30,357 nucleotides of DNA from a virus: positions 1 to 30,357 of IMG/VR virus record IMGVR_UViG_3300017991_000311. One strand, 5' to 3'. Shown here piece after piece: positions 1,684 through 24,239 of the stretch. A model generated the notes under the pieces. The model made no database searches. It saw only the letters and a program-made list of their open reading frames with translations, and was not told where the DNA came from. Both the position numbers and the translations under genes were made by a program. Numbering within the stretch: position 1 is the stretch's first letter; the number at the start of each line of letters is the position of its first letter.

Positions 1684-4600
1684 TTAATACCCCGATACTA
1701 ATATTTTTGCCCCGGATCCCTCACAGTCAACATATGCTTTTGATCCCTCGCAAATAACTTTTGGCTTGCTTCCCGTTATTTCTGGTTGCCCCATCCTGCC
1801 ATATAAAGGATATGTGGCCGTCCCCATGGAAAGCGTGAGAGACATTGCCGATCCAGTGACATAGCCGGCATATGTAGGAGAATGAGGGGTTATGTTTAAA
1901 CGCATGACCGTTGCGTGAACAATCGGATCGTGCGACGATGAACTGCTTGAAGCACTGACAGACGTGCTTGACGACGACTCACTTGACGAGCTGACGCTCG
2001 AACTACTGAACGACGTGGATTCCGAGCTCGACGACGAAACCGATTCAGATTGCGAAGATGCAGAAGTTGACTCCGAGCTGGAAGATGAAACCGATTCAGA
2101 TTGCGAGCTTGAAACAGACTGAGACAAACTTTCCGAGACACTGGAAGACGAAAAGGAAGTTGATTCAGATCCTGAGCTTGAAACCGATTCCGAAGAAGAA
2201 CTTTCAGAGGTTGACTCTGAGCTGGAAACAGAAGCGGAAACCGATTCCGAAGAAGCCGATGTGGATTCCGAGCTTGAAGATGATTGCGATGTGCTTTCCG
2301 AACTGCTGGAAGATGAAACGGAAACAGATTCGCTTTCAGAGCTTGACGAACTCGAAACGGATGTACTTTCAGAGCTTGACGAACTCGAAACGGATGTACT
2401 TTCAGAACTTGAAGACGATACTGATGTAGATTCGGAGCTGGAACTGCTATATCCTCCGCAGCTATCGCCAATCCTGACATAATCTACATAAGATAGTCGG
2501 CCGTTGGTAGTCACGCCCCTTTGTAATAAATGGATCTCTCCATTCGTAAAAGAGCCTGTGTGCGAACAATCAACCGAAGTGGCAACTCGTGCATCGTTGC
2601 GATATACATCACAGGTGGCCGACGCAGGAGTGCTAAAATCAATATCAAACACCCATTTTTGCCAGGTGTCCTGAGCAACCAAATTTAACCCGACCTCGTT
2701 CCAATCCGATCCGTCGTAAATAAATAAACCGTCTGAAGCAAAAGACACATGGAGCAGAACTAAACTGTGTCGAACTTGAAACGTAACCTCGTCGCTGTCC
2801 GAAATCGTTCCAATAGCGTCACAATACAGCATTAATTCGGCAACAACCCTGTCGCCGAACTTTCCGACATCTCTGTAAACATGGGACCAATTATTAGGCG
2901 CTGCGGTATTGCCGGCCATTTTCAGGCAGCTTTTTGAGTCAAACGTTTCCTGGGTGCTTTCAGCGTTAATATTGTCGTCGTCCGTCCAATCAGTAATATC
3001 CGCCATATTTTCGTTTAGATATGACGCATTGCTTTCGCATTGTGAAGAGTCAAGCGAGCTTGAACTGCTGGAAGCTGATACGCTGGTGCTTTCTGACGAA
3101 CTGCTGCTGCTGGAAACAGACGTTGACTCGGATAAAGAAGATGAGCTTACACTCGTACTCTCGGAACTGCTCGAGCTGCTTTGAGATGTTGATTCCGAAC
3201 TGGAACTGCTGGAAACACTTGTTGAGGTTGATTCGGAGCTGGAACTTGACGAAACCGACGCTGATTCGGAAGAAGAGCTTGAAGAAACGCTTACACTTTC
3301 AGAGCTGGAACTGGACGATATTGAAACCGACTCTGAACTCGAACTGCTGGAAACACTTGTGCTCTCCGATGAACTTGAGCTGGAAACGCTCTCGGATTCC
3401 GAGCTGCTGGAACTGGAAACTGATGTTGACTCAGAACTGGAGCTCGACGAAACTGACGTTGATTCCGAGCTAGACGAACTGCTGGCGGATAATGATTCTG
3501 AACTGCTGGAAACGGATGTGCTTTCGGATCTGCTGCTACTGGATACGCTTATTGATTGGCTCGACGAACTTGAGCTGATAGATATAGAGACAGATTCGGA
3601 GCTCGAACTTGACGAAATAGACGTTGACTCCGAGCTGCTTGAGCTCGATACCGAAGTTGACTCAGAAGATGAGGAAGACGATGCTGACGCAGACTGAGAG
3701 CTGCTTGAACTCGAACTGCTGTACCCGCCGCAACTGTCTCCAACCCTGATGTAGTCTATATAGGACAGCATGTCGTTTGATGTCTGTCCGTACTGCTGTA
3801 AGTCTATATTTCCATCTGTAAAGCTTCCCGTATATGAACAATCTACGTCGCTTTCTACAAGATTATCATTAAGATGAACATTAACAGTGGCGCTTGCAGG
3901 AGTGCTAAAATCAATATCAAACACCCATTTTTGCCAGGTGTCCTGAGCAACAACGTTCGTGCCGATCTCGTTATATGAAAGACCATCAAAAACCCAAAGA
4001 CCATCGCTTGCAAGAACTAAAACCAGACTAACATCATCTCGCTGCACCCTGATTCTAAAATAGTCATTCTGGCCCAAAGTACCAATGGCATCGTGATATA
4101 TACTAAACTCAACAACAACCCTATCTCCAAAAGACCCGACATCTCTATATCTATAGGCATAATTTGGAATGGTTGCTGTATTGGTATCAAACCGCATACA
4201 GCTCTTTGAGTCAAAGGTGGTCTGGTCGCTTACGCCGTTTCCAGTGTCCCCATCTGTCCAATCGGAAATATCGGCCATATCCTCATTAAGATACGATCCG
4301 CTGCTTTCGCAACTGGGGAAGGTCGAGCTTGAACTGCTGGAAGACGATACGCTGGTGGATTCTGAACTTGAACTGCTGGAAACAGAGGTTGATTCGCTAT
4401 CACTCGTGGACTCGCTCGAGCTGGATTGCGAGGTTGATTCCGAACTCGAAGAAGAGCTGACCGACGTTGATTCGGAGCTTGAGCTACTGGATACGCTGGC
4501 CGACTCCGAACTGCTGCTACTCGAAACGGATGTGCTTTCAGAACTTGAACTTGAAGAAACGCTCGTGCTTTCAGAGGTGGAGCTTGATGATACGGATGTT

Positions 4601-6057
4601 GATTCTGACGAGCTGCTGGAAGACACACTCGTAGACTCGGAAGAACTGCTGCTTGAAACAGAAATTGACTCGCTCGAACTTGAGGACGAAACACTCTCCG
4701 ATGAACTGGATGAGCTGACGCTGGTGCTTTCAGAACTCGAACTGCTTGATATACTTTCAGATTCGCTGGAGCTGGAAGAGGAAACCGATTCAGATTGCGA
4801 ACTGCTGGAAGAACTAGAGCCTGCCGGTGTAAATTCTATTGTTAAATCACCGACACCCTCTGACCAATAGGTCTCGGAGTCTTCTGCTCCACCAACATGA
4901 TTCCATATAATAGCTATTTTATCGCCACTTTCAAATGCACCAGCTGAATCATCCCCATCTATTCTTGCTTGGATTAAATTATGAAGGCCTGAAGGACTTA
5001 CTTGAACCCCTGTATTTGGTTCATTCCATGTTAGAGTATCTGGGTGTATTGTTTGTTGTGAAGGCCGATTACTCGATCCCCACGTTCCCGGCGAGCGGTC
5101 ATCGACGATAGTTAGCTCACCTTGAGCACCTCCATTATAAATGCCTGTAACGTTAATTTCAATATCTGTTCCTGCGTCTGCTATTGTAGCCCCTGGTAAA
5201 TCAGCATCCGTAACTGTCCACATCCAGCCAACATCGAGTGGAGCACCACCATAATCACCTACATAAATATTGCCACTGCTATCATCATACCAAGTGGTAT
5301 TATTATGCTCAAATCCATCATCAGCGTCTGTTACGGTACTTGGCCCCCAGGTATCAGGCTTGATACTCACAGAAGCAACGGTACTATAAACCTTTTCCTT
5401 GAGATAAACTTCTGTTTTATCTGTTTCCAAAGATACTTTATGGTCTATATCCTCAGATTTTTCCCACAACCAGTAACTCTTGCTGTCTTTAAAAACATAT
5501 TTGGTTCTTCCGGAAAGATTAGGAAGCGCAGGTTTAGCTAATGTTGCTTCCTGGTCAAATTCTAAGGTTGTGCGTTGTAACTTATCTAAGGTTTTGGCCG
5601 TGCCTGTATAGCCAAAAGTAATCTGCTTTGCCCCGCCCATCTCAAACGTAATGTTTGATTTAAAATCTTCGGTTTCGACATTGTATGAGATTTCAAGCCT
5701 ATCCGCAGAATCTTCATTCTCGATAACCTTTGTTGTCAGACCGGACACAGTCGCCGTTTTCCGGTCAAACTCTCCGGGTGTGAGTTCTTTTTCAATCTCA
5801 GGGTGTGCGCCAAAACCGATTAACTTAGTGTTCTTTTCCCATATTTCCACACCCTCAGTAACAAAGCGCAACTCATAGCGATTAAACTTACATATCTTTT
5901 TCTCAGCATCCCACACATAAGGTTTATAATCTTTACCGTCTAAGACGTTGACCTGGCCTATTCCTCCCTTATAGACTTTCTGGCCTGTAGGTTTACCGTC
6001 TTCGGTAACGTTAAACTTTCGCCCGGTAAGGGTATATTTTGTGTGTTCTAATGCCAT
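1684..6057 (-). CDS. Giant serine-rich fibre/adhesin with two duplicated globular domains
   Basis: This is a 1457-residue protein. Residues 1-410 form a beta-rich, probably virion-attached head. Three serine-rich tracts follow at about 411-578, 779-1002 and 1204-1375, built from units such as SSSSSSESTSVS. Between them lie two homologous domains of about 200 residues (579-778 and 1003-1203). Both contain SYLNE(D/N)MADI(S/T)DWTD, TFDSKSC, a shared VAQDTWQKWVFDIDFSTPAS core, and end in RIGDSCGGY or RVGDSCGGY, which resembles a lectin/LamG-like jelly roll. A compact domain of about 80 residues closes the protein. The start codon overlaps the stop of the upstream glycosyltransferase gene (TAATG), so translation is probably coupled. 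It is likely an extended host-binding fibre whose stalk is O-glycosylated. The architecture is seen directly; the glycosylation is inferred from the neighbouring genes. Confidence 0.85.
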   Translation of the reverse strand: MALEHTKYTLTGRKFNVTEDGKPTGQKVYKGGIGQVNVLDGKDYKPYVWDAEKKICKFNRYELRFVTEGVEIWEKNTKLIGFGAHPEIEKELTPGEFDRKTATVSGLTTKVIENEDSADRLEISYNVETEDFKSNITFEMGGAKQITFGYTGTAKTLDKLQRTTLEFDQEATLAKPALPNLSGRTKYVFKDSKSYWLWEKSEDIDHKVSLETDKTEVYLKEKVYSTVASVSIKPDTWGPSTVTDADDGFEHNNTTWYDDSSGNIYVGDYGGAPLDVGWMWTVTDADLPGATIADAGTDIEINVTGIYNGGAQGELTIVDDRSPGTWGSSNRPSQQTIHPDTLTWNEPNTGVQVSPSGLHNLIQARIDGDDSAGAFESGDKIAIIWNHVGGAEDSETYWSEGVGDLTIEFTPAGSSSSSSSQSESVSSSSSSESESISSSSSSESTSVSSSSSSESVSSSSSSESISVSSSSSSESTSVSSSSSSESTSVSSSSTSESTSVSSSSSSESTSVSSSSSSESASVSSSSSSESTSVSSSSSSESTSQSSSSESTSDSESTSVSSSSSSESTSVSSSSSSSSTFPSCESSGSYLNEDMADISDWTDGDTGNGVSDQTTFDSKSCMRFDTNTATIPNYAYRYRDVGSFGDRVVVEFSIYHDAIGTLGQNDYFRIRVQRDDVSLVLVLASDGLWVFDGLSYNEIGTNVVAQDTWQKWVFDIDFSTPASATVNVHLNDNLVESDVDCSYTGSFTDGNIDLQQYGQTSNDMLSYIDYIRVGDSCGGYSSSSSSSSQSASASSSSSSESTSVSSSSSSESTSISSSSSSESVSISISSSSSSQSISVSSSSRSESTSVSSSSESLSASSSSSSESTSVSSSSSSESTSVSSSSSSESESVSSSSSSESTSVSSSSSSESVSISSSSSSESVSVSSSSSSESASVSSSSSSESTSTSVSSSSSSESTSQSSSSSSESTSVSSSSLSESTSVSSSSSSSESTSVSASSSSSSLDSSQCESNASYLNENMADITDWTDDDNINAESTQETFDSKSCLKMAGNTAAPNNWSHVYRDVGKFGDRVVAELMLYCDAIGTISDSDEVTFQVRHSLVLLHVSFASDGLFIYDGSDWNEVGLNLVAQDTWQKWVFDIDFSTPASATCDVYRNDARVATSVDCSHTGSFTNGEIHLLQRGVTTNGRLSYVDYVRIGDSCGGYSSSSSESTSVSSSSSESTSVSSSSSSESTSVSSSSSSESESVSVSSSSSSESTSQSSSSSESTSASSESVSASVSSSESTSESSSSESVSSSGSESTSFSSSSVSESLSQSVSSSQSESVSSSSSESTSASSQSESVSSSSSESTSFSSSSVSSSSESSSSTSVSASSSSSSHDPIVHATVMRLNITPHSPTYAGYVTGSAMSLTLSMGTATYPLYGRMGQPEITGSKPKVICEGSKAYVDCEGSGAKILVSGY
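1930..2448 (-). repeat. Serine-rich coding repeat tract 3
   Basis: This tract encodes about 170 residues dominated by Ser with regular Glu, Thr, Val and Gln (units like SSSSESTSVS, plus SESVSSS variants). It lies between the second lectin-like domain and the C-terminal cap. Serine codons of both the TCN and AGY types are mixed, so the DNA repeat is much less exact than the protein repeat. Confidence 0.9.
2450..3050 (-). repeat. Duplicated lectin-like domain, copy B (copy A at about 3722-4320)
   Basis: Copy B encodes about 200 residues and is a homologue of copy A. Conserved blocks include the SYLNE..MADI start, FDSKSC, VYRDVG/RYRDVG, FGDRVV, LASDGL or FASDGL, an exact VAQDTWQKWVFDIDFSTPAS block and a DSCGGY end. 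The DNA of the exact block is also nearly identical between the copies, while the flanks have diverged. This indicates an internal duplication with local conservation or recent gene conversion. Confidence 0.85.
3050..3720 (-). repeat. Serine-rich coding repeat tract 2
   Basis: This central stalk segment of about 224 residues separates the two duplicated globular domains. The period is roughly 10 residues (SSSSSSEST plus a variable hydrophobic and Ser). Small variants include SISISSSS, SASVS and a STSTSVS insertion. It is encoded on the minus strand inside the giant fibre gene. Confidence 0.9.
4320..4825 (-). repeat. Serine-rich coding repeat tract 1
   Basis: This tract of about 168 residues follows the N-terminal region. 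It opens with a run of Ser followed by QSESVSSSS and passes through repeated ESTSVSSSSSS units before the first lectin-like domain begins at a Cys near residue 582. Confidence 0.9.
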
Positions 6058-6944
6058 TACCTAATATCTGTACTCCATTTTTCGAACTCGCCCTTGAGTA
6101 AATTCCAGCTATCCTTAGCGCCCTTTAAGCATTTAGGGGCATTTCCCCTTTGAGTATTGCAATATTTATCCATATTTCTTAAAATTCCGTTTAACCATCC
6201 CTCTTGCCACCACTTCCCATGCACCATAAGAACTTCAAGGCCGTCATGCGTAACCAACTTATCGTGTTTTAGGAAAACTCTTGTGTCCGGTTTTAATTGA
6301 AATTCGTGCAGGCCTGTGACCTGTTGGGCCGGTAATATGAGTATTTTGTCAGGCTTGCGGTCATCAATTTCGATGTTTTGTATGATATGAATGTTTACTA
6401 ACTCAAAATCACAAAAGGCATTGCTTTTTATCTTGGATTCGTAAATATTTCTCCATATATACCCGTACTTATCGACATCCATCCAAGTAGGCACACTTCC
6501 CATGGTTTTAGGCCAGAAACAGTCTATTGGTTCGCCCAATCTTTTGGCAAAATCCTTTCCAAAATAAAACGTACTTCCGTTTGCGCCGCCTACGATAATC
6601 CCGGTTTCGGCTATATCAAAAAACATTTCCATATTTCTGCAAAAGAACATATCGGCATCACACATCATAACAACGCCTGAAAGCTCAGATGCAAACTTAA
6701 ACCTTGGAATCTTGGTGCTCCAGGCCACGTTAGGTTTCCCTGGGTTATTATCCCACCCAAGAGCTACCACTTCAACGTATGGCCTATGCCTGACGTGCTT
6801 ATCGAGCCAAGCTTCATCAAGGTCTAAGCCCAATAAATATACCTTTATGTTGCTGTTTTTATGGTAGTATTCAAAGCTATTTAAAAATGCCAATACGCCG
6901 GGTTGGAACCCGTTTGATGCGGATACGACTATTGATCGATTCAT
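6057..6944 (-). CDS. Glycosyltransferase, GT8-like (GT-A fold)
   Basis: This 295-residue protein has an N-terminal Rossmann-type start (SIVVSASNGFQPGVLAFLNS) and a nucleotide-sugar binding DxD motif in VVMMCDADMFF (Asp96 and Asp98). The layout resembles glycosyltransferase family 8 and related GT-A enzymes that transfer a sugar from a nucleotide donor using a divalent metal. There is no membrane anchor, so it would act in the cytoplasm. The start overlaps the upstream methyltransferase stop by four bases (ATGA), and its own stop overlaps the start of the giant serine-rich gene. That makes the serine-rich protein the most economical substrate, although host surface sugars cannot be excluded. 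The DxD is seen; the family and substrate are inferred. Confidence 0.8.
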   Translation of the reverse strand: MNRSIVVSASNGFQPGVLAFLNSFEYYHKNSNIKVYLLGLDLDEAWLDKHVRHRPYVEVVALGWDNNPGKPNVAWSTKIPRFKFASELSGVVMMCDADMFFCRNMEMFFDIAETGIIVGGANGSTFYFGKDFAKRLGEPIDCFWPKTMGSVPTWMDVDKYGYIWRNIYESKIKSNAFCDFELVNIHIIQNIEIDDRKPDKILILPAQQVTGLHEFQLKPDTRVFLKHDKLVTHDGLEVLMVHGKWWQEGWLNGILRNMDKYCNTQRGNAPKCLKGAKDSWNLLKGEFEKWSTDIR

Positions 6945-7501
6945 GTTTTCCTCACAATTCCCATGCCGGACCGTTCTTTCAATTCCATGGTTTCAGGAAA
7001 CTCAGACTTAACTTTCGCCCAACCTTCCTTTGAAGATGTGTAAATGTCGTGGATAAACACATAACCCTTGCCGTCATTTCTTATGTGTGGCCACAGTGTC
7101 GTTATTTCATGCCAAATCGCTTCTAACTTGTGGCTTCCGTCCAATAGAACAAAATCAACCCTTCCGATATTTTCTTTTATAAAATCACTGGTCAGGTTCA
7201 TGCTGTTCATGTTCCATATCTGATGATTAATATCAGCTTCGCTCATTATTTCTATTAAAGCGTTTACGGCTCCTATACGCAGCTCAATACCAAAATACTT
7301 ACCTCCCATTTCTTTAGCTGCGTGACCCAACCAGTAAGCCGAACTTCCCGACCCTATACCTACCTCAAGGATGTTTTTAGCATCCATCTGCTTTGCCCAG
7401 GTATACATAATCGGTGCGGTAAAAAGAGAACCCGATCTATGTGTGTGGTTTCCCTCAACTACCGACTCAAAGTTTTGGTCTAAATCTAAAATTCCTCTCA
7501 T
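6941..7501 (-). CDS. Class I SAM-dependent methyltransferase, paralog 2
   Basis: This 186-residue protein has the SAM-binding glycine loop ILEVGIGSGSS (about residues 44-54), an acidic motif in KYFGIEL, a catalytic-type segment VDFVLLDGSH and a late FIHDIY motif. This set fits the Methyltransf_24/cephalosporin hydroxylase-like group, whose members often methylate sugars. It is clearly paralogous to the gene just upstream: both share HRSGS(L/F)F, APIMY, GGKYFG, FIKENIGR, EAIWHEITT(L/I)WPH and GYVFIHDIY. Both junctions are four-base ATGA overlaps, so it is translated as part of a tightly coupled cassette. Methylation of sugars on the fibre is a reasonable guess. Confidence 0.82.
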   Translation of the reverse strand: MRGILDLDQNFESVVEGNHTHRSGSLFTAPIMYTWAKQMDAKNILEVGIGSGSSAYWLGHAAKEMGGKYFGIELRIGAVNALIEIMSEADINHQIWNMNSMNLTSDFIKENIGRVDFVLLDGSHKLEAIWHEITTLWPHIRNDGKGYVFIHDIYTSSKEGWAKVKSEFPETMELKERSGMGIVRKT

Positions 7502-8067
7502 ACTTTCCTCACCATTCCCAGGCCAAACCCGGCTTTTAATTCAAACGTTTCTTTATAGTTCGCCTTAACCTTCGCCCAACCCTCTTTTGAGTCCGAATAA
7601 ATATCGTGGATAAAGACATACCCGCTCCCGTCACTTCGCATGTGCGGCCAGATTGTCGTTATTTCGTGCCAAATCGCTTCCGTACTGTGATCACCGTCTA
7701 AATAAGCGATATCAATTCTTCCGATGTTTTCTTTTATAAACTCGTCTGTCATTTCCCGGCTGCTCATACACCATAATTGATAGTTAAGATCGAACTGAGC
7801 CATCAACTTTTCCAGGCCATTAACACGTCCATGGTCAATCTCCATGCCGAAATACTTGCCACCGTTTTCTTTAGCCGCATGGCTAAGCCAAAAACCGGCA
7901 CTCCCAAAGCATGTCCCAATCTCAAGTATGGTCTTGGCTTTCATTTGTTTTATAAAGCAGTACATAATCGGGGCCATAAAGAACGAACCCGACCTATGGT
8001 TATGAACCCCCGATAGATTTTCTTTAAACCCCTGTTCCAGGTCTATAACGCCTTTGTGTTCAGCCAT
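7498..8067 (-). CDS. Class I SAM-dependent methyltransferase, paralog 1
   Basis: This 189-residue protein carries the SAM loop ILEIGTCFGSA (about residues 47-57), GGKYFGMEID, the acidic YLDGDH motif (about 122-127) and FIHDIYSDS near 153. The His/Asp-rich late motifs are typical of sugar-modifying methyltransferases of the cephalosporin hydroxylase-like type. The start lies inside the end of the upstream GT9-like gene (about 25 bases of overlap) with an AGGAAG site. Its stop overlaps the next paralog by four bases. Two adjacent copies may modify different hydroxyls or successive sugars, but this cannot be told from sequence. Confidence 0.82.
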   Translation of the reverse strand: MAEHKGVIDLEQGFKENLSGVHNHRSGSFFMAPIMYCFIKQMKAKTILEIGTCFGSAGFWLSHAAKENGGKYFGMEIDHGRVNGLEKLMAQFDLNYQLWCMSSREMTDEFIKENIGRIDIAYLDGDHSTEAIWHEITTIWPHMRSDGSGYVFIHDIYSDSKEGWAKVKANYKETFELKAGFGLGMVRKV

Positions 8068-8849
8068 TCTTTTACGCTTCCTTTTTGGTAATTATTAATA
8101 TCAACCACCGCAATGTCCTGTTTTGTATAGCATTTTACTAAATACTCTTTTTCTAAATATAAAGTCCTGTCCGGCATAACAGCCATGCTTATATGGAAAT
8201 TACCCGAATCCACGCAGATGGAAGCCGCGCAGCGCTGGTACAGTGAAATTAACGTTTTAATTGATGGTTTGGCTCTTCGTATGCTGCAGTCAATAAAGCC
8301 AAATTTGGCATTGACCGGATTGTAGTATTTATGCTGAAAGAAGGCTTCTATCGGAATAAAACCTGCTTCTATGATTTCTTTCCAGATTTGCTCTGCGGTT
8401 TCCTCAGAGGGATTTATCGGGTCCGGCAATGCGGTTGCCTGGAAATGGCAGGCTACTAATTTGCTCGGACAATTCTCAAGTTCTGGATAATCGTCAACAG
8501 GATCAATCCCCAATTCCTGAACACAGCACCACCCCTGCTTGGTGTATGCTCCGTTAAGATGTTCGGACATGGGAAAGTGAATCTGAAAGGTATAGTCGTA
8601 GCCTTCGATGGCTTCATTGGGGGTGTCGATTAGCAACCCATCGGGAAACAGCTCTTCCTGGCCGACTCCGTTTTGAAGGGCAATATCAATTTGTGTCCCC
8701 GGAAAAAGCGCTTTTAGCTTTGAAAGCGGGGACATAAACATGATCACATCACCGAGGCCATGCCAGAATATCAGGCATACTTTCTTGGGTGAGTTTTTGA
8801 TCAGGTAGTCCGCTACCTTCATTCCGGCATAGTCGGTGATTAATTCCAT
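8043..8849 (-). CDS. Glycosyltransferase, GT9 (heptosyltransferase-like)
   Basis: This 268-residue protein resembles the ADP-heptose:LPS heptosyltransferase (GT9, GT-B fold) family. The N-terminal acceptor-side motif is FWHGLGDVIMFMSPLSKLK (about 29-47), followed by LFPGTQIDIAL. The donor-side motif is ICVDSGNFHISMA (about 211-223), which corresponds to the DSG..H motif of the family. It is somewhat short compared with the usual 300-350 residues. It lies five bases after the 86-residue gene and overlaps the methyltransferase paralog downstream. It probably transfers a heptose or other sugar; the real donor and acceptor are unknown. Confidence 0.8.
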   Translation of the reverse strand: MELITDYAGMKVADYLIKNSPKKVCLIFWHGLGDVIMFMSPLSKLKALFPGTQIDIALQNGVGQEELFPDGLLIDTPNEAIEGYDYTFQIHFPMSEHLNGAYTKQGWCCVQELGIDPVDDYPELENCPSKLVACHFQATALPDPINPSEETAEQIWKEIIEAGFIPIEAFFQHKYYNPVNAKFGFIDCSIRRAKPSIKTLISLYQRCAASICVDSGNFHISMAVMPDRTLYLEKEYLVKCYTKQDIAVVDINNYQKGSVKEWLNTKAL

Positions 8850-8853
8850 TTAT

Positions 8854-9114
8854 TTATTCCATTGGTTTAAACCTGCGAACCTTCCCCGGTAAATTGTATG
8901 CCGATGGTGCAAGTTTCAGTTGTTCTCTCAGGCTGTGGGCCACATCCTCTTTAGGAAAATTGATATACCCCTGCCAGTGAGAAAGTTTATCTTCCTTTTT
9001 AGTGGTAATGGTAATCAGAAAGCTGCCGACTTTCTCTGCATCGGCCAACTTTTCGTTCATATCGTTGAGTGTTTTTGTCGTTGACGAAATTGCCTTTACT
9101 TTTCCATCTTTCAT
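8854..9114 (-). CDS. Small conserved-looking protein of unknown function
   Basis: This is an 86-residue, mixed-charge protein beginning MKDGKVKAISSTTKTLNDMNEK. It has a strong GGAGG site eight bases before the ATG and ends four bases before the GT9-like gene. There are no cysteines or membrane segments. It contains HWQGYINFPKEDV and SLREQLKLAPSAYNLPGKVRRF, which suggest a small alpha/beta fold. It is the first gene after a 188-base gap and so may open the second half of the glycosylation cassette. I do not recognise a family. Confidence 0.7.
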   Translation of the reverse strand: MKDGKVKAISSTTKTLNDMNEKLADAEKVGSFLITITTKKEDKLSHWQGYINFPKEDVAHSLREQLKLAPSAYNLPGKVRRFKPME

Positions 9115-9302
9115 AGCTGCCTCCTTTTTTCATGCAATATGGTCATAATATGAACATATTACATAACCCATGCTTTATTGTTTACTATTTGGCTAATTCT
9201 CGCTTGTATAACGCCATATTGGCGGCCTAATTCGGTTTGAGTATAAAGTAACTTTATGTTTTCCTGTTTTATCCAACTTGGTTCCTATTTTTTTTATATA
9301 TA
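9115..9302 (-). promoter_or_regulatory. AT-rich intergenic gap with small dyads
   Basis: This 188-base gap splits the sugar-modification cassette. It is very AT-rich. It contains an odd palindrome TCATA-A-TATGA at 9143-9153, repeated CATATT-type words around it, and a small hairpin CGCCA-TAT-TGGCG near 9212-9224. I cannot find a convincing -35/-10 pair and no run of U follows the hairpin, so a promoter or operator is only suggested by position. Confidence 0.3.
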
Positions 9303-10166
9303 TCAAAATGAAAGAATGCCTCCAGAATAATATAAAAGTACGTTCTTGGCGACTTCCTGAGGGCTTATCATTGCAAAGCACCTTGGAACACCGCCTACCC
9401 TTGACTTGCAATCCTGATACTTGGCCGTCCAGCAGCCGTTACCCGGAGCGCATTTCAGGCACCCGCACACAGACAGATACCTGTGATAGTTATACATCTG
9501 CCACCTGGGAGGTTCTTTCCCCCCTGCAACGATTACAGATGGCTTATTAAACGCTGTTGACAGTACAAACTGACACGACACAGGTCCGATTGTCCCTTCA
9601 GACCGATAGATAACCTGTATCAGCTCTCTCAAATTGGTTTTTCCCACCAAGTTAAACGCGCCATCAAGGTCGTTGTGAACATCGCTATTTGAACCCACCT
9701 GAACGATCTGAATCTTGTTTTTAAGTTCCTCCACAACCTCCTGCCAGAAAGGATAATACTTTAATATCGCATCGGCCTTGTACCCGGCATTTAACACCCA
9801 ATATTTACCGGAATAGCTTGTTTGTTCCTGGACAATATTTCTCTTTTTTTCCTCGGTAGTGAGATGAAGATCAATATTCATATTGGTAAAAGGGATATCA
9901 ATTCCCAACTGCTTGGCTAAATCGAGCCGGAAACCGTCTGAAAACGACATGGAACCCGGTTTCTGAATCAGCGGATATCCGAGATCCAACTCTCTCCCTT
10001 CTTCAAGCTCGGTAATATACGGATTGTTTTCCCACAGTTCCGGCCATCTGGTGCGAACGTCCGTTTGATATTCTCCCGGGTGCGATAGGTGTAAATCTCG
10101 AACCGCAATGGTCATCATGGCCGTGTCGCCCACATCAAGGCCGTGTTTTAATATTAATTTTTCCAA
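9303..10166 (-). CDS. Glycosyltransferase, GT9-like with C-terminal cysteine cluster
   Basis: This 287-residue protein has a GT9-type N-terminal loop (DVGDTAMMT, residues 11-19) and a donor-site region LVGKTNLRELIQVIYRSEGTIGPVSC (about 173-198), where heptosyltransferases have their GKT.L..L and DSG motifs. This is followed by AFNKPSVIVAGG. The usual Asp of DSG is replaced here (IGPVSC), so activity or donor choice may differ. A cysteine cluster, CGCLKC and GCW (about 234-246), may bind metal. The start is one base after the upstream methyltransferase stop. It probably acts with the other transferases on the fibre or the host surface. Confidence 0.75.
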   Translation of the reverse strand: MEKLILKHGLDVGDTAMMTIAVRDLHLSHPGEYQTDVRTRWPELWENNPYITELEEGRELDLGYPLIQKPGSMSFSDGFRLDLAKQLGIDIPFTNMNIDLHLTTEEKKRNIVQEQTSYSGKYWVLNAGYKADAILKYYPFWQEVVEELKNKIQIVQVGSNSDVHNDLDGAFNLVGKTNLRELIQVIYRSEGTIGPVSCQFVLSTAFNKPSVIVAGGKEPPRWQMYNYHRYLSVCGCLKCAPGNGCWTAKYQDCKSRVGGVPRCFAMISPQEVAKNVLLYYSGGILSF

Positions 10167-10679
10167 TTATTTCCTCTTAAACAGAAAAGATCCGATATCC
10201 TGCCTTATCCCACACTCAGGGTTGCCCTTTTTAACGAGCTTATAACCCCGCCTGTCAAAAAATTCCTCAATAGACGCTTCGGTAAATGTGGTAATATGCT
10301 CACCGGGTTTATAATGATGCCACCTATACAACAGTACCCCTTCGGGCAAAATAGGCACTGTCACCGCCGCCCATTTTGCATGATGCAGCATGAAGTTTGC
10401 CAGGTTGAGATCTGTTAAGTGCTCAAGCACGTCCCAAAAGGTAATCAGGTCGTATTTTTCCCTCCTGATCCCGGTTTGGGGCGCAACACCGACATCGTAA
10501 GTGTCAACTTCAACATCCGGCGGTCTGAACACCCTGAACCAGGGAACCCCGGCCCCAAAGTCCAATACTGTTTTTGCCTTGGCTTTTTTGACAAAATCCC
10601 ATCTGATATTGGCAATCTTTTCGGACGTTACGCTGTTCAGGTACAATGTTCGCTCGTAATAATCTAAGTCGTATTTCAT
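10167..10679 (-). CDS. Class I SAM-dependent methyltransferase (type 11/12-like)
   Basis: This 170-residue protein has SAM motif I VLDFGAG (about 38-44), an acidic turn VDTYDVGV and the post-motif block YDLITFWDVLEHL (about 77-89), typical of Methyltransf_11/12/23 enzymes. The C-terminal HHYKPGEHITTFTEASIEEF resembles the part of these proteins that follows the substrate cap. It begins the cassette just after the Ig-like gene and is followed without a gap by the GT9-like gene. It differs from the two tandem methyltransferases at 6941-8067, so the cassette holds two methyltransferase types. Confidence 0.82.
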   Translation of the reverse strand: MKYDLDYYERTLYLNSVTSEKIANIRWDFVKKAKAKTVLDFGAGVPWFRVFRPPDVEVDTYDVGVAPQTGIRREKYDLITFWDVLEHLTDLNLANFMLHHAKWAAVTVPILPEGVLLYRWHHYKPGEHITTFTEASIEEFFDRRGYKLVKKGNPECGIRQDIGSFLFKRK

Positions 10680-11022: not shown

Positions 11023-11143
11023 GTTTCCCCCTTTTGATTTGAATACCGTGTTTGACGGGTTGGATTATCTTTTCTCCCGGCTGTGCCTCAATCTCTTTGC
11101 ACTCGATGAATTGAGTTTTCCAGTTTTTTATCTGTTTTCCCAT
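10982..11143 (-). CDS. Possible small basic protein bridging two genes
   Basis: A 53-residue frame fills the gap between the tail-tube-like gene (which it overlaps by 16 bases) and the Ig-like gene (which it overlaps by about 40 bases). It begins MGKQIKNWKTQFIECKEIEAQ and continues GEKIIQPVKHGIQIKRGKHAR. The first 40 residues look protein-like, but no convincing ribosome site is placed before the ATG and the long overlap counts against it. It could be a real small gene or open by chance. Confidence 0.4.
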   Translation of the reverse strand: MGKQIKNWKTQFIECKEIEAQPGEKIIQPVKHGIQIKRGKHARGNRRNSHRAG

Positions 11144-13566
11144 ACGCTCGTTACCAATCCTATCTCAACAAGGTTCATTTTTGTGTTATGCTCCCCGCAG
11201 CCTATTTTAACGGATATGTTCTGATCTGTTAAATTGACCTGAAAGCGCTCTCTTTTGATTATTTGCCCGGCGGTTTCTGCTAACATTGAGATTGTTCGAC
11301 TCGGACCGGATAGGTTGTTTTTAAAAAACTCTAAAAGAACCCGCCCATGCTCTTGAGCAGCGAATCGAATAAGGAATTCGTTGAGTTCTATCACTTCTCC
11401 GCCGTAATTAAGCTCGATCTGAACATAAGAGCTGATTGCCTTACTGACATCGTTAAGACCGTAATTTAATTGATAAACAGTACCGTCAGCCTGCCCCCCG
11501 CCTATCTGAACGTTGGGAATGTTTTCAGAACCGGCCTCAACTTCGGACATGCAGGACAACTCCTGGCCCAAAACGTCAAAAGACCAGGTTTTATCGGTTA
11601 AATCGTATACGGGAAAAACGTTCGGTTTGGTTGCCAGAGCTCCGGTTACAAGCCCGAGCCTTAAAACGTTATAGGCTGAATCGTATTTGAGCCACATTTT
11701 ATCTTCATACCCGCGCCGGATACATTCGTCCTTGGTCTGATCGAAATAATTCTGAATATCGTCCGAAATAATGGATATGGTATATCCGTTGGAGACGCAC
11801 ACACCGGAAGACGATAAAAAGAACGCCAGGGTTGCAATCTTTTCTTCAAGTGCCGTGGCTTTATCTGCCGTTGCTGTTTCCACCCCTTCGACCACTTCAA
11901 CGCATTTGGAGTTCATTGCGCCGATTCGGACCGAAAGAACGCTCCGGGTAATATTTGTTGGGGAAGATCCGGAAAAAACAGTCACGCACCCGCCGCCCAC
12001 GCCCTTTTCCTCCTGCCAGACCATTACCTTGTCCTTATAAGGTTTCATGTTTACGATTTTGTTGCTGCGCCCGTCCCCGGCTCGGAGTATGCCGTAGTCG
12101 GAACCGTTTAACACAAGCGGTTGAGCAACCTTGGACAAATAAATGTATGATCCGTACTCGTCAAAAGAATACAGCGCCCGGTCCTTCCAAACGGTATTAC
12201 ACTGGCTTATTCCCAGCTCGGATATGTCAAAATACGGCATGGTATCGATTGAAAGAACGGTATTGGCATCAATCGCACCGGTATAGTTGATTTCGTACCA
12301 ATAGGCATAATACTGTGTGGTCTGGAATTGGTGGGGTTGTGCATCTTTGCGGGCAAACGTGATCCATCCGGGACGACTCAGGGCAATTGTTCCAGTTCCG
12401 TTTAAAGTGCCGTCATTTACCGCTCCCACGGTCGCAAACGATGAACCGTTGTAATATTTAATGGTGTCTATTACGAGCAATGTGGAATTGGGTGTGTTTC
12501 CCGGATCAATATAAATAGCCTCTATCGGATCGGCAGAGGCAATCATGAGTCTTTCGTTGGTATGTAGACCTCCAACATCGACGGCCCCCGATCCGTAAGT
12601 TGACCATGTTTGATTTTCGCTGTCTTCAACCTGGCATTCAACAGCAGCTACCGGGATACCGTCCCACACATTTACAATGTCCTGAAACTCGGTCTGGAAA
12701 GTAACCGATTTAAGCCTTACCGTGGCACTGAGCTGGACGGAAAATCTTAACTGATACCAGAACCCGCAGGATCCGTACTGATATTTTGGAATAATATCTG
12801 ACTGTGCGTCAAAGGTGATATAGCCGTCTTGGGCCAGGGTTGCACCGCCAGAAGCAGTTCCATCAGAAACATTTGTCGCCTGTCCCCATGCCCCATTCCA
12901 GTATCCTATGGATAGATCACTCACCACGGCGTTTGCCGTGTCCACATCAACATAAAACCCGATCACAGGGACAGGGGTACGGATAAAAACACAATTATAA
13001 TTCGTGTATGTGTCGATGGCGTCAAGGATGGCAACATCAGACCTGGCATTGGATATTTCTGTCGAGTAATCCTCGCCCTTGGTCGGGATGGTTTCAAGAC
13101 TTCCCACCCCTTTATAAACGATAAATTTTTCAATAAAACTTGAATTGCCGCAAAAAATCTGGTGCTGATCTACCCCGTTGGACATTAAAAGCTTGTCCGC
13201 CACGGTGGACCATGATGCAGGGATCTGATCAATGCTACCGTCAAAAACTTCACTGCCGAAAACTCCGGTAGTTACGGTCGGCGGATCGTTGGTGGCTTCA
13301 AGAATATCCCCATCGGACATCTGAGCAAAAAGATGCTTTTCGTCCACCCGGGATTTACGGTATTGAAATAAAGACAAGACCTCATTTGATCCGTCTGCTG
13401 TGGTATGGAGTTTTCTTTGGCCCGGTCTGGTAACAAAATCAGGGTGTTTGCCGCGAATATTCTGAACCATGGAATAAGCGCCGAACGGTAGTTGCGCGGC
13501 TGGCCGAACGGTAATTGCACCCCCCCGAAACGGTTGGCCTTTGATTTGTGTAAGTGGAATTAGCAT
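11128..13566 (-). CDS. Large tail-tube/stabilisation protein (podovirus tubular-B-like)
   Basis: This 812-residue, strongly beta-rich protein begins MLIPLTQIKGQPFRGGAIT. The opening with a QNIRGKHPDFVTRPGQRKLH segment and later propeller-like repeats (SSFATVGAV, ALYSFDEYGSYIYLS, KDKVMVWQEEKGVGG) matches the large podophage protein that forms the lower tail tube or nozzle next to the adaptor. The length agrees with T7 gp12-like proteins of about 800 residues. It follows the adaptor candidate by seven bases. The gene position (after capsid and adaptor, before fibres) is a strong part of the argument. I did not match specific domains. Confidence 0.7.
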   Translation of the reverse strand: MLIPLTQIKGQPFRGGAITVRPAAQLPFGAYSMVQNIRGKHPDFVTRPGQRKLHTTADGSNEVLSLFQYRKSRVDEKHLFAQMSDGDILEATNDPPTVTTGVFGSEVFDGSIDQIPASWSTVADKLLMSNGVDQHQIFCGNSSFIEKFIVYKGVGSLETIPTKGEDYSTEISNARSDVAILDAIDTYTNYNCVFIRTPVPVIGFYVDVDTANAVVSDLSIGYWNGAWGQATNVSDGTASGGATLAQDGYITFDAQSDIIPKYQYGSCGFWYQLRFSVQLSATVRLKSVTFQTEFQDIVNVWDGIPVAAVECQVEDSENQTWSTYGSGAVDVGGLHTNERLMIASADPIEAIYIDPGNTPNSTLLVIDTIKYYNGSSFATVGAVNDGTLNGTGTIALSRPGWITFARKDAQPHQFQTTQYYAYWYEINYTGAIDANTVLSIDTMPYFDISELGISQCNTVWKDRALYSFDEYGSYIYLSKVAQPLVLNGSDYGILRAGDGRSNKIVNMKPYKDKVMVWQEEKGVGGGCVTVFSGSSPTNITRSVLSVRIGAMNSKCVEVVEGVETATADKATALEEKIATLAFFLSSSGVCVSNGYTISIISDDIQNYFDQTKDECIRRGYEDKMWLKYDSAYNVLRLGLVTGALATKPNVFPVYDLTDKTWSFDVLGQELSCMSEVEAGSENIPNVQIGGGQADGTVYQLNYGLNDVSKAISSYVQIELNYGGEVIELNEFLIRFAAQEHGRVLLEFFKNNLSGPSRTISMLAETAGQIIKRERFQVNLTDQNISVKIGCGEHNTKMNLVEIGLVTSVWENR

Positions 13567-13573
13567 AAATACC

Positions 13574-14434
13574 TCACGAAGTTGCTATGATTCCATAAGA
13601 AGCGCTTCCAATCTGGTATTCGGAAAACAAGTCGTGCATATCCACATCCTCGCTCGATCCTGCAAACGCCCGGAGGGTTTCAACCAGATCTTCGTTGAAC
13701 ATTTCTTTTTCATCTTTGGTAACTCTGTTTTTGGCTAAAGGACTTGACGCCCTGAGCAACATTGACGCCCTGGGAGCAATCAGGTGATGAAACGGTTCAG
13801 GCAAATCGGGAACCAGACCAAAATAATCGTCCTTGGCCGCTGTTTCGCTGATGGTTGCCACCCTCGCGGTTGAATAATCGTCAATGGTGTCCACCCAATC
13901 CTTAGTTATATTTTCGATTGTCATGTCGTTGTAATAATCAGCAACCTTAGAGGCAGTATCGGGAAAGGTGATAGATGCGGATCCGCCGCCAGCAGCTTTA
14001 CCGGAAAAGATTTTCCTGGGTTTCCAACGGTAATATAAGGTATAGGTCTTGGTAGAACCGGATTTTTCCAAAACAAGCGTGTTGCCCTTCCGATAATACA
14101 ATAAATCAGATATGCCGTTTAAAGTAATATCTTTTGTGCCTATCGGATGAACTTGAACCCCGTTTTCATTTTTAAACCATTCCAGTTCTCCAAAATCAGC
14201 CGGAAGGGTAAAAACAGAATTAACCGCAGTTAAATCAACCTCTTTTCTGAAATGATGTGGCTTTCGTTTGAATAGCAGGTTGTACAGATAAATTTGAGCT
14301 ATATTAATTTTCTGGGTAATCAGCTCGTTTGAAAAGGCTGGATCACCAGAGCCCTGAACATATGACTCGCTATATTCGTTTATATCACGCCGAATATCGG
14401 CAATAATATCGTAACAGTTATAATATGTCCCCAT
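13574..14434 (-). CDS. Head-to-tail adaptor candidate (tubular-A-like)
   Basis: This protein has about 286 residues if started at the ATG at 14434, which has GAGGGG just upstream and lies ten bases after the previous stop. An upstream start at 14476 is possible. The N-terminal helices (NCYDIIADIRRDINEYSES, ELITQKINIAQIYLYNLLFKR), the FTLPADFGELEW block and the C-terminal helices with HHLIAPRASMLLRASS resemble podophage adaptors that bind the portal. It lies immediately before the 812-residue tail-tube protein, as in T7-like and related phages. The role is inferred from size, helix pattern and order. Confidence 0.68.
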   Translation of the reverse strand: MGTYYNCYDIIADIRRDINEYSESYVQGSGDPAFSNELITQKINIAQIYLYNLLFKRKPHHFRKEVDLTAVNSVFTLPADFGELEWFKNENGVQVHPIGTKDITLNGISDLLYYRKGNTLVLEKSGSTKTYTLYYRWKPRKIFSGKAAGGGSASITFPDTASKVADYYNDMTIENITKDWVDTIDDYSTARVATISETAAKDDYFGLVPDLPEPFHHLIAPRASMLLRASSPLAKNRVTKDEKEMFNEDLVETLRAFAGSSEDVDMHDLFSEYQIGSASYGIIATS

Positions 14435-14444
14435 AAACCCCTCA

Positions 14445-15182
14445 TCATTCCGGCACAGATTCGGGGAACGGCTCACCGAATAACTTTTCGTGCCGTTCGT
14501 TAATTTCAGTTTTTATTTCATCGGGATACGTTTGAATTGCATCCCAATTTTTCTTAACCCAGATTTTAAAATGTGATTTGTTTAGCGTTCGGAATTTAAT
14601 CGCTTCATCATCAACATCAGGACCCTTTTTGTCCTCTCCAGCTGATTTCATCATATCGATAAATTGTTTCATCTGGCTACTCAGCTCTGTAACCTGCTCC
14701 TGAAGATCAAAAACTTGCTTTTTCTGCTCTTTGATGAGCCCGTCCTTCTTTTTCAGTTCGTTTGTCAAAGCCCCAATCTTTTCCTGCCCTTCGTCTGGAT
14801 CTGTATAGGGTTCAACGAGCTTAATACCCACCTCGTCGGCATACTCCTTAAGATGTTTTGCCGGGTGTAAGTATCCAATTTTATTATCCTTGTTGCTTAT
14901 GTTGAGCTGGTTGAACTCAACCACCTGTTTTCTTTTAAAATCTAAGTTGCGCTTTACCCCGGAAGCGGCTTTTTCTTTCTTTATCTTACCATCCTGCCGA
15001 TCATCTCCATACTCAAGGGTTGTAAGACCCCTCGGAGCCAAAACGTTAAGAACGTGCCTTGCCCTCTTATCGTCCACCTTTAATACGTGACCGTCTTCTG
15101 GATACGGCTTTAAAATCACATCAACGCCCTGGTGTTGCGTTCTTAGTTCTTCATTGGTCGGGTTAAATAATACAGTAGCCAT
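14445..15182 (-). CDS. Coiled-coil phage protein, head region
   Basis: This 245-residue protein has an N-terminal folded part (MATVLFNPTNEELRTQHQG to about residue 60), a charged stretch and a clear coiled coil at about 140-185 (IGALTNELKKKDGLIKEQ onward to SSQMKQFIDMMKSAG). An Asp-rich linker and a Lys/Trp helical tail follow. No membrane segment is present. It lies between the 145-residue gene and the adaptor candidate and is preceded by two hairpins. A role in head completion or connector assembly is possible; no family is recognised. Confidence 0.7.
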   Translation of the reverse strand: MATVLFNPTNEELRTQHQGVDVILKPYPEDGHVLKVDDKRARHVLNVLAPRGLTTLEYGDDRQDGKIKKEKAASGVKRNLDFKRKQVVEFNQLNISNKDNKIGYLHPAKHLKEYADEVGIKLVEPYTDPDEGQEKIGALTNELKKKDGLIKEQKKQVFDLQEQVTELSSQMKQFIDMMKSAGEDKKGPDVDDEAIKFRTLNKSHFKIWVKKNWDAIQTYPDEIKTEINERHEKLFGEPFPESVPE

Positions 15183-15251
15183 AATTTCTCCTTTCCCTTA
15201 AAGTAATGTTCTGTGTCAGAGCATTAAATAAAGGTGTATAATGTTGTATAA

Positions 15252-15298
15252 GGTTGGGCGAACAAGCGACCGCAACGCAGTTCTTTATCCGCCCAACC
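15252..15298 (-). other. Long-stem RNA hairpin between genes
   Basis: A nine-base perfect inverted repeat (GGTTGGGCG paired with CGCCCAACC) encloses about 30 bases, and an inner GAAC/GTTC and GCG/CGC can also pair. On the minus strand there is no run of U after it, so it is not a standard terminator. It could be a processing or stability element in the leader of the coiled-coil gene. Confidence 0.45.
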
Positions 15299-15306
15299 CG
15301 CCAAAG

Positions 15307-15321
15307 GAGGCAAAATGCCTC
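15307..15321 (-). other. Short perfect hairpin at a gene end
   Basis: GAGGCA-TTT-TGCCTC forms a six-base stem with a three-base loop that overlaps the stop codon of the 145-residue gene. Only a short CTTTGG follows, so termination would be weak. Together with the longer hairpin just downstream it makes a tandem structured spacer. Confidence 0.45.
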
Positions 15322-15757
15322 ACGCGAGACCCTTAACGGTAGTGCCTTTTGGTTTAGGCTCTATTCGCCTGAAAGCGGAGTTGCCCTTGCCTGCCCCGGC
15401 CAAGCGTCCGATAGCCCTCGCCAATTGAATCTTATCGTCTTTGGTTGCACCCCGGATATTTTCTCTGGCGTCTTTGCGCTTTTTTTCCCTTACCTTCTCC
15501 ATGTAAAGAGCAGACTTTTGAATTTTGGTCTTCATGTCTTCATTGTTCAGATCCCCGGACTTGAGAAATTCCAAATCTCTCTTATCCGGCTGTCTGAATT
15601 CGCCGTTATCACCCTTAACCATGAAAATAGGAACGCGCCCACCATAAGGTCTTTTGTAGTTCACCACAAAATGACCGTGGCCCGGTACATACTCACAACC
15701 CAAGCGCCTGTCCAAAGTCTTCAAATCTTTTACAAAAACTCTGTCTGGTTGATACAT
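15320..15757 (-). CDS. Basic phage protein, head region, unknown role
   Basis: This 145-residue protein begins MYQPDRVFVKDLKTLDRRLG. Its start lies one base after the stop of the 58-residue gene. The N-terminal 70 residues look like a small beta domain (CEYVPGHGHFVVNYKR, VPIFMVKGDNGEF). The remainder is strongly basic and helical (MEKVREKKRKDAREN). Proteins of this type occur near the capsid genes of other podophages, but I cannot name the family. The context suggests a virion or assembly role. Confidence 0.72.
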   Translation of the reverse strand: MYQPDRVFVKDLKTLDRRLGCEYVPGHGHFVVNYKRPYGGRVPIFMVKGDNGEFRQPDKRDLEFLKSGDLNNEDMKTKIQKSALYMEKVREKKRKDARENIRGATKDDKIQLARAIGRLAGAGKGNSAFRRIEPKPKGTTVKGLA

Positions 15758-15758
15758 T

Positions 15759-15935
15759 TCAGTTCCATTTGATTTTATCGTAGTTATCCCTGTAGGAATC
15801 GCTTACCCTGCCATGCTTCCAGTCGTCGGCATCGCAGGCATCAGAATTCCACTTCTCCCATATTTTGGGATTAAACTGCATATCCTTACCCTGGCCGACA
15901 ACCAAGGGATCATTACTTTTTGTTTGATTTTCCAC
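15759..15935 (-). CDS. Small acidic/aromatic protein, GTG start
   Basis: A 58-residue frame starts with GTG at 15935, with AAGG six bases upstream, and overlaps the previous small gene by about 23 bases. The sequence from LVVGQGKDMQFNPKIW through NSDACDADDWKHGRV to DNYDKIKWN is rich in Trp, Asp and Lys and looks like a genuine coding sequence. The next gene starts one base after its stop. No function can be assigned. It is too short to be found by length-based calling. Confidence 0.65.
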   Translation of the reverse strand: MENQTKSNDPLVVGQGKDMQFNPKIWEKWNSDACDADDWKHGRVSDSYRDNYDKIKWN

Positions 15936-16041
15936 TGCCGGCCTTGTTTTCTTTTCTGATTTTTTTAAGTTCTTCGCAGACCGTACAGGGTTCGCCTACA
16001 ATGTGCTTCGCATTGCATTCTTTACAAAATGTCGTTTCCAT
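15913..16041 (-). CDS. Small zinc-ribbon-like protein
   Basis: A 42-residue frame begins METTFCKECNAKHIVGEP. An AAGGAGG site sits seven bases before the ATG at 16041. Two CxxC pairs (FCKEC and CTVC) can bind one zinc, and the C-terminus is Lys-rich. The ribosome site and cysteine spacing make it a believable gene. It is the first gene after the hairpin at 16071-16094 and starts a run of three short overlapping genes. A role in nucleic acid or protein binding is plausible but unproven. Confidence 0.65.
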   Translation of the reverse strand: METTFCKECNAKHIVGEPCTVCEELKKIRKENKAGSGKSNKK

Positions 16042-16070
16042 TCATCATCCTCCTTCTTTTTTTATTCTCG

Positions 16071-16094
16071 GGGGTTATACGTTTGTATAACCCC
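16071..16094 (-). other. Ten-base-pair hairpin after the beta-helix gene
   Basis: GGGGTTATAC and GTATAACCCC form a perfect ten-base stem with a four-base loop. It starts seven bases past the stop codon of the beta-helix gene. In the direction of transcription it is followed by CGAGAATAAAA rather than U, so intrinsic termination is doubtful. Protection of the upstream mRNA 3' end or partial attenuation is more likely. Confidence 0.5.
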
Positions 16095-16100
16095 GTTTGT

Positions 16101-17099
16101 TTAAGCTGCATCTGAGATTTCAGTTACTAAGCCACCAGCCGCATTAGCAACCGGCATAGTCCCAACAATAGTAGCATTTTCAGCATCCTGCCACGCATCA
16201 CAACCGTTCAGGCTGCAATTATCCAGCACGATCTGTCTGTCTCCGATGGAGTTGGATGCACTCTCGTAAAAAGCCTGGTTCATCTTGGTTCCGGTGGTAT
16301 AGTTGTTAAAGTCACAGTTTCTGAATGTCCAGCCCCTACCAAGTTTGTTAGCCCCCACGACAGAGACGAACGCACAGGTAGCCGTCTCGGACCGGCTCAA
16401 TATCTGGCAATCTCTGAAAATTCCGCCGTTGGTCTGACCGTCCTTGAACAAAATGACGCCAGCATTGGCACCGGTTCGAATGCTCCACACATCCTGACCG
16501 ATAATGCAGTGGTCAAAGATGGGATACATACCGTCAAATTCGATCTGCAGCGAGCAGGCCAAGGCCGCAGCCGACTGAGTGGCCGCCATGGTTCCGGCAA
16601 TATGACAGTCTTTAAAAACACAGCCATACTTATCCAGTTTAACGGCAGCCACGTTGTCAGCATCAGCCCCTGCGTTATTGTAGATCATACCGTTAAATAT
16701 GCACCCCTGACCGGTAATGTTAAGAACCTCTGCTACATTTGCAGTAGTGGTATACATGGCACAACCGTATTCGGAATAATCGCCACCGACATTCGGTCCG
16801 GCCATACCGAGCATATGAGTAAATGCCTTATCCCATGCCAGCGAAGCGGTCTGAACATAAGCCCCGGGAGCCACCAGCATAACATCGTTTCGGTAGGCCA
16901 CCATAGAAGCTTCGGCGGCGGTAGGTGTGGCAAAAATACTGCCATTTTTAACACCCATTGACTCTAACTGTGTTTTAAACTGTGAAGTCGCACTTGCAGT
17001 CGGTGCAACATAGAATATCTCACCAACGCCGGGCCCTAAACCGGTCTGAGACATAATCCACTGGATCAAGCTTGAGTCTAAATTTCGTTTTTTAATCAT
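16101..17099 (-). CDS. Right-handed beta-helix protein, possible head fibre or decoration
   Basis: This 332-residue protein has a good AGGAG site before the ATG at 17099. After an N-terminal part of about 100 residues it shows regular turns typical of pectate-lyase-like beta-helices: VLNITGQGCIFNGMIYNN, KYGCVFKDCHIAGT, YPIFDHCIIG, GGIFRDCQILS, WTFRNCDFNNYT and RQIVLDNCSL. Repeated F.(D/N)C turns build a Cys/Asn ladder. It directly follows the capsid gene, separated by a terminator. The context suggests a head-associated fibre or decoration protein. Enzymatic sugar cleavage is possible but no catalytic set is evident. Confidence 0.75.
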   Translation of the reverse strand: MIKKRNLDSSLIQWIMSQTGLGPGVGEIFYVAPTASATSQFKTQLESMGVKNGSIFATPTAAEASMVAYRNDVMLVAPGAYVQTASLAWDKAFTHMLGMAGPNVGGDYSEYGCAMYTTTANVAEVLNITGQGCIFNGMIYNNAGADADNVAAVKLDKYGCVFKDCHIAGTMAATQSAAALACSLQIEFDGMYPIFDHCIIGQDVWSIRTGANAGVILFKDGQTNGGIFRDCQILSRSETATCAFVSVVGANKLGRGWTFRNCDFNNYTTGTKMNQAFYESASNSIGDRQIVLDNCSLNGCDAWQDAENATIVGTMPVANAAGGLVTEISDAA

Positions 17100-17123
17100 T
17101 TGTCATTCTCCTTATAGTTTGCC

Positions 17124-17135
17124 CCTCTTAAGAGG
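17124..17135. promoter_or_regulatory. Perfect 12-bp palindrome upstream of the beta-helix gene
   Basis: CCTCTTAAGAGG is a perfect palindrome 25 bases upstream of the beta-helix start codon and just after the capsid-gene terminator. It could be an operator or a small hairpin. The evidence is only the symmetry and position. Confidence 0.3.
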
Positions 17136-17143
17136 ATACTGAG

Positions 17144-17167
17144 AAAACCCCCTGGTTTTCCAGGGGG
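17144..17167 (-). terminator. Intrinsic terminator after the major capsid gene
   Basis: On the minus strand an eight-base stem CCCCCTGG/CCAGGGGG with an AAAA loop is followed by TTTTCTC. It starts nine bases after the capsid stop codon. The strong GC stem and short U run suit a partial terminator that would raise capsid mRNA relative to downstream genes. Confidence 0.8.
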
Positions 17168-17175
17168 AGTCTGTT

Positions 17176-24235: not shown

Positions 24236-24239
24236 AAGG

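Follow-up and report, generated by a model that had tools for sequence, protein, structure and literature searches.

A recurrent glycosyltransferase and methyltransferase cassette beside a putative serine-rich tail protein in uncultured phages

A cassette of predicted glycosyltransferase and methyltransferase genes precedes the gene of a serine-rich protein in an uncultured phage, and recurs in three other uncultured phages; sequence comparison indicates that it is a genuine and mobile unit. We propose that it serves virion glycosylation, with the serine stretches of the neighbouring protein as main acceptor in this phage, a reading to which we give roughly even odds (about 0.5).

The cassette and its genomic setting

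The stretch analysed, hereafter the window, spans the whole of an IMG/VR virus record (30,357 bases), with all main genes on the minus strand. Its gene content points to a P22/SU10-type phage with a short tail, as judged from the following predicted genes:

22766-24280, minus strand: terminase
19762-21831, minus strand: P22-like portal
18511-19326, minus strand: scaffold-like protein
17176-18492, minus strand: SU10-like major capsid protein, MCP (Pfam below cut-off; PHROG major head protein, E 1e-36)
13574-14476, minus strand: SU10-like adaptor
11128-13566, minus strand: nozzle, 812 residues (identity taken from position)
directly upstream of the cassette, minus strand: Ig-like protein, 113 residues (Pfam below cut-off)

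The gene order is adaptor, nozzle, Ig-like gene, cassette and then serine-rich protein. Contig 3300018080_002449 is 100% identical over the stretch compared (window 12518-28492) and stops short of the cassette, so that the assembly of cassette and fibre has no independent copy. Elsewhere in the record, a caspase/metacaspase-type peptidase (27495-28337, minus strand; PF00656, E 4e-28) is encoded in the lysis region beside lysozyme and lipoprotein genes; its 56% identical copy in the related record G002 (817-1668) retains the SGHGSQ and DACHS motifs. The capsid gene adjoins that of a 332-residue protein (16101-17099, minus strand) with weak pectinesterase/beta-helix similarity (E 0.0035) and a 47% identical counterpart in another relative, G006.

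Between positions 1684 and 10679, open reading frames and coordinates are as an earlier note on this DNA had given them. Toward the serine-rich protein, the cassette runs in the order MT23, GT9, small protein, GT9-like, two MT24 and GT8-like:

10167-10679, minus strand: MT23-type SAM methyltransferase (PF13489, E 2e-10; phrog_6564, E 1e-16)
9303-10166, minus strand: GT9 glycosyltransferase, GT9a, 287 residues (PF01075, E 9e-7, 28.9 bits against a gathering score of 22)
8854-9114, minus strand: small conserved cassette protein, 86 residues (57% identical in G002, 41% in G004)
8043-8849, minus strand: GT9-like putative glycosyltransferase, GT9b (PF01075, E 0.013, 15.3 bits, below cut-off)
7498-8067, minus strand: MT24-type SAM methyltransferase a (PF13578, E 7e-15)
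6941-7501, minus strand: MT24-type SAM methyltransferase b (PF13578, E 3e-13; 64% identical to G002)
6057-6944, minus strand: GT8-like (GT-A, D-x-D) putative glycosyltransferase (no direct family match)

The cassette lies directly upstream of the fibre gene, as the note had said, and the three methyltransferases it named are borne out by these matches, two to PF13578 and one to PF13489. It had missed the small gene, which sits between both GT9 genes in the window, G002 and G004. Of its two GT9-like and one GT8-like enzymes, GT9a holds; GT9b is below cut-off and has 83, 77 and 62% identical counterparts in three other phages; the GT8 label is indirect. No Pfam, PHROG or NCBIfam match was obtained for the 6057-6944 protein. 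D96 and D98 of its D-x-D motif are invariant in five of five aligned sequences (alignment A8), and PF01501 is reached by a single aligned homologue out of the five (E 3e-4). A firm GT8 assignment was rejected. The PF01075 match of GT9a spans residues 82-227 of 287, and its fold model has a pLDDT of 33. Searching the PDB by sequence, we found no convincing relative of the two GT9 proteins or of the GT8-like protein, and only weak O-methyltransferase matches for the MT24 pair, which are paralogues (60% identical); PPR matches in this search were judged spurious. When the cassette enzymes of the window and G002 are compared, synonymous sites are near saturation and pN is 0.10-0.24, which indicates strong purifying selection.

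The overlaps reported earlier were confirmed on the sequence (4-nucleotide ATGA at 7498-7501 and 6941-6944, one-nucleotide TAATG at 6057), with a further one of 25 nucleotides at 8043-8067. Several overlapping starts are preceded by GAGG/AGG-type ribosome sites, and translational coupling of the last cassette genes and the fibre is plausible.

What would such enzymes act on? None of the seven cassette proteins has a strongly hydrophobic segment (maximum KD19 1.57); by hydropathy the enzymes look soluble, so a cytosolic target fits. One alternative is that they modify host surface glycans, resulting in a superinfection block or a changed receptor: PF01075 is the LPS heptosyltransferase family, and there are weak NCBIfam matches to heptosyltransferases I/II. 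However, the cassette has neither the flippase nor the membrane glycosyltransferase of Gtr-type systems, nor any strongly hydrophobic segment. Its genes are moreover located among tail genes, which as a general rule are expressed late, and we regard this alternative as quite unlikely. Glycosylation of phage DNA against restriction, proposed for other phage glycosyltransferases (PMC12619734, PMC10202952), is far less probable still: no base-hypermodification gene was seen among the window proteins scanned, in a record from which replication genes are mostly absent, and a tail-gene position with three methyltransferases of small-molecule/O-methyltransferase type fits poorly. A virion protein is favoured as target over LPS or DNA because of the lack of membrane segments, the location among tail genes, the conserved order and the mobility of the cassette.

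Distribution of the cassette among related phages

We listed the open reading frames of seven distinct related records, window included (a 5-kb record, L019, was left out, and the listing for G001 covers 20,000 of its 20,352 bases). The cassette is present in four of them: the window, G001, whose contig ends inside it, G002 and G004. It is absent from G005 (partial, 16.9 kb), G006 and G008, and no serine-rich open reading frame occurs in any of these three. The order MT23-GT9-small-GT9-like-...-GT8-like is common to the window, G002 and G004, and G001 has its first part. A serine-rich protein accompanies the cassette in two of the four carriers, the window and G004; there is none on the G002 contig, and that of G001 ends before this point. 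The informative counts are two of three phages with the cassette versus none of two long contigs without it, too few for statistics.

The strongest support for the pairing comes from G004, where it recurs with different sequences and a nearly unrelated terminase (27% identical to that of the window, versus 72% for the cassette GT9 and 63% for the GT9-like protein). A serine-rich protein starts 63 nucleotides past the last GT8-like gene of G004, with a GH130-like repeat and a serine-rich tail (poly-Ser with Phe/Leu), in sequence unlike the window protein. In its C-terminal part, a methyltransferase of the G004 cassette (L025:3093-3908) resembles ParB_N, with a match that narrowly misses the cut-off (E 1e-5).

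The strongest objection is G002, whose MCP is 82.6% identical to that of the window. Its cassette is enlarged to ten genes, and its 29,977 bases hold no serine-rich open reading frame; the homologous place is taken by a 253-residue protein and a 513-residue protein with He_PIG and weak beta-helix similarity. The contig is incomplete: it breaks off inside an open reading frame some 3.2 kb beyond the GT8-like gene, and a serine-rich gene may follow further on. One G002 cassette protein (L010:13433-14071) has a Cys-rich N-terminus (CSMCGSTC...CNWCG), then a methyltransferase-like part, and no Pfam match. In the three informative cases, the next or second gene after the cassette encodes a jelly-roll, GH130-like or beta-helix protein, with serine stretches only sometimes.

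In two backbone relatives, G006 and G008, a fused GT8+GT9 protein (PF01501, E 7e-6 and 4e-4; PF01075, E 7e-10 and 4e-7) is encoded near the tail adaptor (L027:7695-9488 and L031:4364-6094), and G006 additionally carries a methyltransferase. No serine-rich protein was found on their 48.9 and 43.7 kb. These fusions show an association of GT8-type with GT9-type enzymes in the lineage, where the glyco-enzymes may be older than the serine stalk.

Together with G002, they lend weight to another explanation, that the cassette glycosylates a lineage-wide virion protein, such as the 113-residue Ig-like protein or the nozzle, the serine stretches being unmodified flexible linkers. An Ig-like gene (71-78% identical) indeed precedes the cassette in the window, G001 and G002. 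However, on the incomplete 11-kb contig of G004, cassette and serine-rich protein occur together and homologues of the Ig-like protein and the nozzle are lacking; nor does this explanation account for the serine-rich genes that, in two phages, lie right behind the cassette. We consider this explanation unlikely, if not strongly so. The serine stretch as acceptor is the simplest reading for the window and G004, while the machinery also occurs where no such stretch is seen. The synteny with serine-rich genes that the earlier note had put forward as a check is found in the window and G004, not in the incomplete G002 contig or beside the fused enzymes. The note had named related phages with the cassette and no serine-rich protein as grounds for refutation, and G002 in part supplies such a case. 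Its proposal that the phage glycosylates and methylates its own fibre gains from the conserved order, the tail-gene location and the serine-rich genes next in line in two phages, and loses from G002; given G002 and the fusions of G006 and G008, it is plausible, not established.

Wider searches added little. The GT8-like protein, the fibre N-terminus and the MT24 pair found no relatives in viral sequence scans, nor did a genome scan with the GT9a alignment give a match. Nothing among GenBank phages matched the fibre N-terminus, the lectin domain, the GT8-like protein, GT9a, GT9b, the nozzle or either of the fused GT8-GT9 proteins; for an MT24 there were two matching records, at 26%, and three phages with terminase or MCP similarity have no annotated glycosyltransferase. 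Serine-motif scans returned three T4-like viral contigs, with no such serine-rich protein among their listed open reading frames of at least 90 residues, and one Aliicoccus genome stretch, antisense to an acidic protein; all were judged chance matches.

Architecture and codon usage of the serine-rich protein

The protein has an N-terminal part of about 407 residues, three serine stretches alternating with two globular domains, and a C-terminal part of about 76 residues:

1684-6057, minus strand: serine-rich multi-domain protein, 1457 residues, predicted tail-associated from operon position
4285-4836, minus strand: Ser/Thr-rich stretch 1, residues 408-591 (137 Ser or Thr of 184)
3739-4287, minus strand: predicted jelly-roll (ConA/LamG-type) domain 1 (AF2 model, Foldseek, VIA)
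3028-3738, minus strand: Ser/Thr-rich stretch 2, residues 774-1010 (176 of 237)
2470-3027, minus strand: predicted jelly-roll domain 2 (58% identical to domain 1)
1915-2469, minus strand: Ser/Thr-rich stretch 3, residues 1197-1381 (129 of 185)

With stretches defined over 20 residues at 60% Ser or Thr or more, the Ser/Thr-rich part amounts to 606 residues, 442 of which (73%) are Ser or Thr. The region had been described as one stalk of about 560 residues in a giant fibre; the composition is right, the stalk is split in three by the two domains, and 'giant' overstates 1457 residues. The two domains are paralogous, and both are predicted to fold as jelly rolls, the first from its model and the second by its identity to the first. 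The model of domain 1 is of moderate quality (pLDDT 61, pTM 0.66), with a best Foldseek E of 4e-6, a best VIA Z of 11.9 and a VIA Z of 10.4 against the central fibre of mycobacteriophage Douge. Such domains are putatively lectin-type; a shared fold is no proof of sugar binding.

The serine residues of the repeat units look constrained, in an array that appears old and not a fresh product of slippage. The unit ESTSVSSSSSS occurs fourteen times without any change in protein, and the DNA identity among these copies averages only 59%. Among 24 units of period 11, chosen by Glu spacing of 11, 8 of 11 positions are invariant in all 24, and codon differences are 2026 synonymous versus 306 nonsynonymous (counted pairwise, so that shared changes are counted many times), whereas 25% of random changes would be synonymous; 831 of the 2026 are switches between TCN and AGY. 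An exact 41-nucleotide DNA repeat in stretch 3 points to some recent duplication as well. Adjacent serine codons belong to the same set in 90 of 236 pairs, versus 126.0 (sd 7.5) in synonymous shuffles, none of 500 being as low, and versus 114.9 (sd 6.8) when shuffling is confined to the same unit place. The serine-rich gene of G004 (L025:1-171) behaves likewise, with 9 same-set neighbours versus 19.7 expected, partly from one repeated DNA unit. This pattern would be consistent with avoidance of triplet slippage, and stretches so constrained yet codon-scrambled offer a handle on what stabilises such repeats. The constraint on serine fits an unmodified flexible linker as well.

As to enzyme activity, acceptor, sugar and effect of the glycan, we infer the following for virion glycosylation on the serine stretches. 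Genes 10679 to 6057 would form a late module, in which the GT9 and GT8-like enzymes, being soluble, assemble a short glycan for capping by the MT23/MT24 enzymes, possibly with a sulfotransferase in one relative (the G001 cassette has an extra gene that resembles sulfotransferases and matches PF13469 below cut-off, at E 2e-4). The glycan would be placed on tail host-recognition proteins before assembly, most likely, in the window phage, on the three serine stretches spacing the two lectin-type domains. These linkers would thereby gain stiffness, hydration and protection. More tentatively, the mobile module might produce a receptor-binding fibre that is an O-glycoprotein, mucin-like and capped with methyl groups, in which serine-rich stalks space lectin-type domains. 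Its modification would take place in the host cytosol, through a GT9/GT8/methyltransferase pathway dedicated to it and passed between unrelated phages with interchangeable serine-rich adhesins; we see this fuller version as possible, and somewhat doubtful.

Comparison with known systems

Cellular serine-rich repeat adhesins (GspB, Fap1, PsrP) carry long serine-rich stretches beside binding domains and have adjacent, dedicated Gtf loci that include GT8-type enzymes. The window protein shares the long serine-rich repeat region, but it has no KxYKxGKxW signal, LPxTG anchor or strongly hydrophobic segment and is encoded in a tail region; no GT4 GtfA/B pair appears among the Pfam matches of the cassette, whose glycosyltransferases are GT9/GT8-like. 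As export and anchor motifs are absent, membership of this family was rejected, and the parallel drawn earlier survives in its logic only. The jelly-roll domains recall phage tail proteins with ConA/LamG-like domains, such as the Douge fibre; unlike in those, the two domains are set apart by serine-rich stretches. We found no phage serine-rich fibre with a glycosyltransferase cassette in the open-access literature searched.

GT9a gave no match at E <= 0.1 to the NCBIfam autotransporter heptosyltransferase model, which we take to be that of AAH/TibC. TibC/AAH enzymes, GT-B proteins of the heptosyltransferase type, act on serine residues of an adhesin; TibC has an N-terminal beta-barrel of about 97 residues and, in the C-lobe, a metal (iron) finger of four cysteines (Cys-339/342/358/370, spacing x2, x15, x11; PMC4358343). 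GT9a, 287 residues in total, also has a late cysteine cluster (C239, C245, C253 and C263, invariant in four of four sequences of alignment A7), but with a spacing of x5-x7-x9. On cysteine spacing and family model, we rejected its membership of TibC/AAH, and the likeness stands as a resemblance.

Mycobacteriophage virion glycosylation uses phage-encoded glycosyltransferases. Its glycans are on structural proteins, at capsid and tail-tube C-termini (Freeman et al. 2023, as cited in PMC12619734), which by analogy makes it the closest precedent. The window phage differs in its putative acceptor, a serine-rich lectin-type protein, and in its GT9/GT8-like enzymes and methyltransferases. Beyond mycobacteriophages, protein glycosylation by phages has received little study; if true, the pairing of a conserved and transferable cassette with tail adhesins that can be exchanged would be a compact and testable system for dedicated O-glycosylation of receptor-binding proteins, and would also be relevant to the protection of long flexible fibres in phages.
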